From NCBI GenBank assembly GCA_017478485.1, contig JAFVDI010000003.1, positions 248,001 through 312,000 of the forward strand: a stretch of 64,000 nucleotides of DNA, written 5' to 3'. How positions within the stretch are numbered: the stretch's first letter is position 1; every line of letters starts with the position of its first letter. The translations under genes were made by a program, and so were the position numbers. Under the pieces are notes generated by a model, which made no database searches, had not been told where the DNA came from, and was given only the letters and a program-made list of their open reading frames with translations. Below, one piece after another: positions 43,960-62,266 of this stretch. The DNA is from Clostridiales bacterium. Lineage in GTDB: Bacteria; Bacillota; Clostridia; Saccharofermentanales; Saccharofermentanaceae.

Positions 43960-44077
43960 GCGCACATTAGCTGTTTGGGTATCTGTTTTGAATAGAATGG
44001 ATACCTAAATGGTTAATCAGAGGCTCCTGAGGCGCATATTAGCTGTTTGGGTATCTGTTTTGAATGGAACAGATACC
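43960..44077. repeat. Pair of 46-bp direct repeats, each a palindrome
   Basis: Copies at 43960-44005 and 44032-44077 share GCGCAYATTAGCTGTTTGGG and nearly all the rest. Each carries GGTATCTGTT pairing with AACAGATACC (copy 2, perfect) or AATGGATACC (copy 1, pairing kept through two G-U pairs). The 327-bp gap 43883-44209 otherwise holds only the groEL terminator and a promoter. Confidence 0.85.
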
Positions 44078-44171
44078 AAAATAGCTACTTTGCCATTATT
44101 CTCCCGATCACCAAGCTGCAAATAGACTTACTATCGATTGAATGCTGTTTAGTTTAATTATCTGCGCCTTG

Positions 44172-61113: not shown

Positions 61114-61240
61114 TATTTCGGCTTCTTAAGTCTCACCGGTCTCTTTTTTTGCTTTAAAGTCTCATTTTCGGGCCTGTTTTTTTAATTTGCTTCACTTTAC
61201 TCACAATTCTGCTTCATGCGTGTCTAGAATGAAGTGGAGT

Positions 61241-61425
61241 TTACCTATAAATTTGCATGAATCTGAATTTTATAGGTAAGAATTCCAAAAAAATAGCCTG
61301 TTTTAGCTTTGGTTTACCTATAAAAATGCGATTTTCGGATATTTATAGGTAAACCCTGACCGATATACCCGATTTTCAGCCTGATTTTACCTATAAATCT
61401 GGGAAATATAAGAATTTATAGGTAA
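61241..61425. repeat. Exactly periodic array of three palindromes (six TTACCTATAAA half-sites)
   Basis: TTACCTATAAA occurs at 61241, 61314 and 61387, and its reverse complement at 61269, 61342 and 61415. Start-to-start distances are 28, 45, 28, 45, 28, giving three palindromes with a 73-bp period, 17-bp centres and 34-bp spacers. Centres and spacers differ in sequence while the arms are identical; the second palindrome extends to 14 bp per arm (GGTTTACCTATAAA). It fills the 346-bp gap 61114-61459 together with about 125 bp of T-rich sequence in which I see nothing else. Confidence 0.95.
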
Positions 61426-61459
61426 ACCTTAAGATTTGGGCATCATGAGAGGACATAAA

Positions 61460-62266
61460 ATGAAAGATTATCGAGAAGATACATTACAAGAACTGGCAGA
61501 GATAAAGCAAAGGATTGAAAAAGAGATCGCTTTGCTTGAAAACCGGCTTCGTACTTCACCTGAAGGCACTCTTCGGGTGACCAGGAATCACAATGGCAAT
61601 CAATTCTATCGAATGATTGAACTTAATGACACTAAAGGCATATATCTTTCAAGGAGCAATGGTGATCTTATCTCACGTCTGGCTCAAAAGGATTATGAAA
61701 AGAAGCTTATGCCTGTTCTGATAAAACAACATAAGGCTATAGAGAGATTCCTTAAGGATTATGAGCCACAGGCAGCGATTGACGTCTTTGAGAATCTGAA
61801 AGGCCCGAGAAAACAACTCGTGACCCCCGTATACCCGAGTGACGAGGAATTCGTCAGGCAGTGGCTGAGTAAACCATATAAAAAGCTGAACTTCAGGAGC
61901 GACGATCCGGAATACATTACCGAAAACAACGAGCGGGTGAGGTCTAAGTCAGAGATCATAATCGCGAATACGCTCAGGAGCCACAATATCCCGTACCGAT
62001 ATGAGTATCCTGTGTATGAAGACGGAGTGCTGATCGCGGCTCCGGATTTCAATTGCCTGAATGTAAGGACCCGAAAAGAATATTATTGGGAACACCTGGG
62101 CATGATGGATGACGAGTCGTATGTGAACAAGAATATCAGGAAGATAGAGAAATACACGCTCGCGAAGGGTTTTGATGAGTCAAGGCTGATACTGACTTTT
62201 GAGACGGTCAGGCAGCCGTTAAATACCAGGATAATTGAGGAGAAGATCAGAAGATATCTGGTCTGA
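61460..62266 (+). CDS. PD-(D/E)XK-like nuclease-fold protein
   Basis: A 268-residue protein with an N-terminal coiled-coil-like helix (residues 1-32) and a C-terminal domain resembling PD-(D/E)XK nucleases: Glu165 in RSKSEIIIANTL, Pro195-Asp196 in APDFNCL, and Glu211 in YYWEHLGMMDDESYVNK. The final Lys of the classical motif is not in its usual place (EHL), as in several variant families. Arg- and Lys-rich segments could contact DNA. ATG 61460 follows AGAGGA by 6 nt; upstream starts at 61436 and 61445 are disfavoured. It sits alone, 34 bp beyond the palindrome array. A selfish, defence or repair role is possible; none is shown. Confidence 0.72.
   Translation: MKDYREDTLQELAEIKQRIEKEIALLENRLRTSPEGTLRVTRNHNGNQFYRMIELNDTKGIYLSRSNGDLISRLAQKDYEKKLMPVLIKQHKAIERFLKDYEPQAAIDVFENLKGPRKQLVTPVYPSDEEFVRQWLSKPYKKLNFRSDDPEYITENNERVRSKSEIIIANTLRSHNIPYRYEYPVYEDGVLIAAPDFNCLNVRTRKEYYWEHLGMMDDESYVNKNIRKIEKYTLAKGFDESRLILTFETVRQPLNTRIIEEKIRRYLV

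Follow-up and report, generated by a model that had tools for sequence, protein, structure and literature searches.

The palindrome array and adjacent gene in the window

The window, the whole 64,000-nucleotide stretch analyzed here, contains a palindrome array at 61241–61425 that ends 34 bp before the ATG at 61460 of a gene for a nuclease-like protein. The half-site TTACCTATAAA occurs six times, exact in every copy, at 61241(+), 61269(−), 61314(+), 61342(−), 61387(+) and 61415(−). The half-site spacings of 28/45/28/45/28 arrange these copies into three palindromes with a strict 73-bp period. The features of the locus are as follows.

61210..61758, no strand: specificity cassette, the array plus ~100 codons, replaced relative to the syntenic locus L072 of genome G052
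61241..61279, no strand: palindrome 1, TTACCTATAAA-N17-TTTATAGGTAA, exact match
61280..61313, no strand: 34-bp spacer 1, sequence differs between arrays
61314..61352, no strand: palindrome 2, axis +73 bp from palindrome 1, exact match
61353..61386, no strand: 34-bp spacer 2, sequence differs between arrays
61387..61425, no strand: palindrome 3, axis +73 bp from palindrome 2, exact match
61460..62266, + strand: putative cognate gene, a 268-aa PD-(D/E)XK/EDxHD-like nuclease with an N-terminal domain (open reading frame, profile and homologue searches)
61460..61774, + strand: N-terminal domain, residues 1–105, proposed site reader (AlphaFold2 models, cassette swaps)
61937..62263, + strand: nuclease domain, residues 160–268 (conservation, model, C-terminal match)

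A recount, sequence shuffles and a genome-wide count agree exactly with the six perfect half-sites, 28/45 alternation and 73-bp period described in an earlier, sequence-only reading of this DNA. With up to one mismatch to the half-site allowed, these six are the only matches in the window, and 100 dinucleotide-preserving shuffles gave a mean of 0.54. A chance origin of the six half-sites is excluded because the shuffled windows, searched with the same tolerance, gave at most 2 matches versus the 6 observed. The 11-bp arms are identical while the 17-bp centers and 34-bp spacers are not conserved, and the contrast that the sequence-only reading drew between kept arms and spacing and unconserved centers and spacers holds.

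The 268-aa protein matches no family in Pfam, NCBIfam or PHROGs. It is nonetheless not the orphan that it was first taken for but a member of a large multicopy family. Of the 85 genomes of the genus, 81 have relatives (mostly 1–10 matches per genome), and a genome collection yields relatives from Saccharofermentans-type rumen bacteria, Lachnospiraceae, Eubacterium and spirochaetes. Ruminococcaceae bacterium YAD3003 and Eubacterium uniforme ATCC 35992 are carriers available in culture. The AlphaFold2 model is confident (mean pLDDT 93) and residues 162–268 adopt a nuclease fold in it. Among the nucleases, the catalytic domain of I-Bth0305I (3r3p) ranks highest, with a VIA-align Z of 8.4 and an rmsd of 2.7 over 89 residues, a Z range that unrelated rows also reach. 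E165, D196, E211 and H212 are invariant in 52 homologues, and residues 152–266 match the C-terminus of the PADLOC candidate PDC-S68 (E 3.7e-23). In the model, residues 1–105 form a helical hairpin into which a small beta element is inserted. Foldseek and VIA-align identified no trusted structural relative of this domain; prefoldin, CHMP4B and the Rad50 hook are helical-hairpin look-alikes. The domain may resemble integrase arm-binding domains.

A phage or plasmid origin of the gene was considered and rejected. IMG/VR gave C-terminal-domain relatives alone, the plasmid matches covered the nuclease domain alone, mostly within larger ATPases and helicases, and the phage collection gave one unannotated 4-kb contig. 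This sole phage-collection match (L152, MT839528.1) is a 4.2-kb unannotated human-gut contig that encodes a 32% homologue and is probably a mislabeled bacterial fragment.

Arrays beside homologues and their helical spacing

The pairing of such a gene with an array occurs in many gut bacteria. Every one of the 33 close homologues whose upstream DNA is readable has an upstream array, 27 of the arrays passing a strict detector and 6 being weaker or identified by eye. The detector thresholds were set within the present analysis, and 3 of 136 far-flank control tiles passed; in the window, the detector passes just the 61241–61425 array and a second array at 43966–44089. The genome of the window (G000) encodes a second close homologue, which also has an array as judged by eye. 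Among distant homologues an array was detected in ~17 of 46, sometimes 3′ of the gene. The tie between array and nuclease-like gene proposed from the window is far stronger than the window itself could reveal.

Half-sites are nearly constant inside one array and differ between genes. Those at other genes include TGACGGATAA, GCATATAAGG, GACGTACTAAAA, TTACTTACTG and ACCTACTAAA, and most consist of a ~7-bp variable core followed by an A-rich inner part.

The array periods across lineages are 42, 52–53, 63–64, 73–74, 84.5 and 95 bp, which are near whole multiples of 10.5 bp. The Rayleigh statistic for hand-listed spacings is 0.97 with a phase near zero (p ~2e-4 versus uniform spacings). Recomputed with one median per locus, the statistic is 0.79–0.81 (p ~2.5e-4), a set that includes the ordinary CRISPR array of L136 and also L107, whose mean of two in-phase steps falls out of phase. 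Irregular steps occur in L106 (65) and L123 (55 and 76). This helical quantization, as read from the sequences compared, fits the suggestion that a 73-bp period puts the palindromes on one face of the DNA. The notion that 34 is meaningful as twice 17 finds no support; center and spacer lengths differ in other families, and it is the total period that lies near whole helical turns. Palindrome mismatches exhibit no sense-strand G-U preference (83 sense versus 73 antisense). Because the periods follow the helix and there is no G-U strand bias, recognition is probably of duplex DNA rather than RNA.

A 66-bp-period array lies just after a Sphaerochaeta homologue (L136 4790–5949). It is an ordinary CRISPR array, was rejected as a member of the family and is taken as a coincidence. 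ORFs that resemble cas1, cas2 and csn2 lie beyond it and were named by size and order only.

Exchange of the array together with the start of the gene

Alignment of the window with the syntenic locus in G052 (L072) gives ~83% identity over 2.2 kb on each side and is absent between ~61210 and ~61758. The half-site in L072 is TGACGGATAA, and a third half-site occupies the same argH locus in another genome (G024, L073). Among syntenic pairs with a dissimilar half-site consensus, 49 of 54 lack alignment across the array, with alignment resuming 28–447 nt into the gene, whereas all six pairs with near-identical half-sites align across it; syntenic pairs and related loci are not independent, so these counts overstate the evidence. 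Three of the five exceptions share a half-site that scored low, one is partial and one is real (L083/L093), the alignment spanning the array despite moderately different half-sites. As judged from these alignments, the array and the start of the gene are replaced as one cassette while the flanks and the nuclease domain stay alike. The role proposed for the N-terminal domain rests on the syntenic swaps because the Mantel correlation between protein and half-site similarity is weak and does not separate the N-terminal from the C-terminal part.

Dispersed arrays in the window's genome and its relatives

A search of the whole 2.72-Mb genome, run up to its match limit, gives 27 exact half-sites, 26 of them within five arrays that lie on the following contigs.

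C19 (window), C26, C30, C34, C37: one array each

Each array has three palindromes of the TTACCTATAAA family in 73-bp steps, with one palindrome one base longer. The four arrays outside the window share its geometry and have unrelated genes as neighbors. Two of the five arrays have a fourth palindrome with the half-site altered to TTACCCATAAG.

The related genome G091 has 42 palindromes of the TTACCTATAAA family, mostly in threes. Most of its arrays sit inside a dispersed composite of ~330 bp that has GAGACAG-type terminator hairpins on its flanks (L020, L022, L024, L025), with palindrome ends of TGACC/GGTCA outside and GTACC/GGTAC inside. L025 has a single palindrome in the same flanks, as if three had collapsed to one. 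Another element may have spread the G091 copies, most of which sit in this larger dispersed repeat. Palindromes of the TTACCTATAA type are present in G089.

Palindromes with the half-site TTACTTRCTG occur in exactly 3 of 85 genomes, those whose gene has this half-site, and most of the genomes are metagenome-assembled and incomplete (G052, 85%). The three genomes have 33, 24 and 34 copies, versus 4–5 beside the gene. For this one tested family, the genome sequences place dispersed arrays together with the presumed cognate gene. Palindromes of TGACGGATAA are confined to G052, where they adjoin its gene and recur at a single further location, the pta site. The pta site has TTACCTATAAA in the window's genome and TGACGGATAA in G052, next to older-looking ACCTATCAG palindromes. 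G052 also retains two old TTACCTATAA-type arrays though the gene at the window-syntenic locus has changed. The distant Acetatifactor genome (L141) has 53-bp arrays next to the gene and on a second contig. The sequence-only reading had set genome-wide scatter, variable spacing and a missing link to the gene family against its own proposal; the palindromes are scattered genome-wide, and they keep the same spacing and a clear link to the family.

The dispersed arrays lie between convergent (19), tandem (7) or divergent (2) genes, counts in which some orthologous sites are entered twice. Their presence varies between related genomes: the C34-site array is present in the window's genome and absent in G052, and a four-palindrome TTACGTACCT array is present in G075 and absent in G015. 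Empty-site comparison at two presence/absence sites revealed no clean target-site duplication. Sister genomes also differ in unit number (6 and 5, 5 and 4, 4 and 5) and by array decay, and in one case (L008 and L018) sister species share an array unit for unit. A heterotypic array in G075 (L177 3803–4114) combines four TTACGTACCT palindromes with one TTACTTACTG palindrome, and the G015 counterpart (L166) has TTACTTACTG alone. At one intergenic site (L202 versus L167), the palindromes of G075 are of the TTACTTACCA type and those of G015 of the TTACTTACTG type.

A second branch of the family

The window's genome encodes two 253-aa paralogues (L067 and L068) that have only the nuclease region in common with the window protein. 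L067 is on the same contig as the window, outside it, and its array lies 3′ of the gene, with three units at L067 1173–1370, a 72-bp period and the half-site TTTGGGTATCTGTT; the array of L123 is likewise 3′ of its gene. The L068 array is just upstream of the ORF (L068 830–1020), also with a period of 72, and belongs to a third family with a CTATGTTGACGTCC-like half-site. The second array in the window belongs to the L067 family.

43966..44089, no strand: second array family, two palindromes with a period of 72, after groEL; dispersed copy of the L067 array

Discussion

The closest known arrangement is that of REP/REPIN elements with RAYT (TnpA-REP) transposases (PMC2817692, PMC3116915, PMC8266576). 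Both have short extragenic palindromes that cluster beside a gene and occur as dispersed copies, here matching the gene-side repeat, and both have several gene-repeat pairs of different sequence with apparent co-evolution. In contrast to REP/RAYT, the arrays described here are phased, only the arms are conserved and there are few copies per genome; the recognition suggested here is of duplex rather than single-stranded DNA, and the array and N-terminal domain appear to be exchanged as a cassette. The system would work like REP/RAYT but lies outside that family because the protein is not a Y1/HUH enzyme (the Pfam scan has no Y1 domain and the model is PD-(D/E)XK/EDxHD-like) and the window palindromes have no GTAG or CGTC tag at their feet.

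The EDxHD homing endonuclease I-Bth0305I, whose catalytic-domain fold may resemble that of the window protein at the Z score given above, is described in a review as dimerizing on an unusually long target (PMC3943268). Unlike I-Bth0305I, the present system has no intron, intein or interrupted gene, its sites form arrays that recur in the host genome and its N-terminal domain is different. PDC-S68 shares the C-terminal nuclease domain, but its profiles span ~1200 positions whereas the window protein is a nuclease domain joined to a short unrelated N-terminal domain. In the type I restriction specificity subunits (HsdS), recombination replaces the recognition domain and keeps the rest of the locus. 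The exchange described here is similar in both respects, but there is no methyltransferase or translocase and the sites are swapped along with the domain. No earlier description of such a nuclease-array system was found in the open-licence literature, and one may exist elsewhere.

The best explanation overall, to which we assign a probability of about 0.6, combines a cognate array, a phased protein multimer, REP-like dispersed copies and cassette-borne specificity. The array would be the cognate duplex-DNA binding site of the neighboring gene's protein, and the sequences argue strongly for this recognition. A dimer would bind each palindrome through the N-terminal domain, with one subunit per half-site reading the ~7-bp variable core and then the A-rich stretch towards the center. 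Whole-turn spacing would place successive dimers on one face of the helix and favor their joint, cooperative assembly. The gene-linked array probably also controls expression of its gene, and the nuclease domain is predicted to be catalytic. We infer that the dispersed arrays are non-autonomous copies, lying mostly between convergent genes, whose spread and upkeep would need the cognate nuclease. The case for spread by the nuclease is circumstantial because no target duplication or intermediate was seen and most G091 copies lie in the larger composite. Specificity would shift when recombination replaces the array and N-terminal domain and leaves the nuclease domain in place.

The sequence-only reading had offered both an autoregulatory operator and a recognition array for the nuclease; the latter is the inference we favor most, and the array may also act as an operator. 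Arrays that are operators only, with the protein repressing or activating its own gene and the dispersed arrays serving as titration sites or regulon operators, are unlikely. Nearly all close homologues do have the array immediately upstream of the gene, and it moves together with the N-terminal domain, but few dispersed arrays occupy divergent (promoter) positions, the window array revealed no sigma-70-like promoter, the L067 and L123 arrays are 3′ of their genes, and a conserved nuclease active site is superfluous for an operator. That active site also counts against chromosome-organizing sites, in which DNA would be insulated, bridged or anchored by a phased multimer on arrays between convergent genes. 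The helical phasing, the low copy number per genome and the convergent positions suit such sites, but specificity and positions change fast between sister species, and we regard this role as distinctly improbable. Rather improbable is a restriction- or defense-like system in which parasites drive the change of specificity and the nuclease is sequestered, stored or licensed by the arrays of the host. As in restriction systems, specificity is hypervariable at loci that stay fixed, and the C-terminal domain matches the candidate defense protein PDC-S68; against this, the whole protein falls outside defense families, no methyltransferase or other partner gene was seen beside the window gene, and many copies of the site lie in the host's own genome.

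Ordinary dispersed repeats, whether MITE-like or products of slippage, would have no functional tie to the nuclease gene, and the presence/absence and unit-number differences and the composite repeat of G091 are as expected for them. This reading is very improbable: every close homologue has an upstream array, half-sites are gene-specific and switch with the N-terminal domain, and one dispersed family is found in exactly the genomes that have its gene, which already contradicts it. A structured RNA, also raised by the sequence-only reading, or a CRISPR-like array is extremely unlikely. With 39-bp palindromic units and 34 bp of dissimilar sequence between them, the array has a CRISPR-like look, and each palindrome could fold as a hairpin. 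However, only the arms are kept, near-identical repeats are absent as the unit centers vary, and one array corresponds unit for unit in sister species; the G-U strand test is negative, the periods track the DNA helix, and there is no Rfam match near the gathering score. By the look of the ORF list, there are no cas-like genes among the neighbors of the window gene.

For the nuclease-array system itself, we lean slightly towards an undescribed class of element. A stand-alone nuclease with a DNA-reading domain and a helically phased palindrome array would form one exchangeable cassette that is hypervariable at fixed chromosomal loci. Dispersed arrays would come to match the resident allele, with nuclease and sites co-evolving in trans in Clostridia and spirochaetes. 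If true, the REP/RAYT arrangement would exist in a second, independent version, built on an unrelated nuclease and apparently on duplex rather than single-stranded recognition. Many protein-site pairs would be readable from sequence because each gene carries its own array, making the N-terminal specificity code directly learnable. The N-terminal domains might yield a new family of DNA-binding domains, and the cassettes would provide a natural system for the joint change of DNA-binding specificity and genomic sites.
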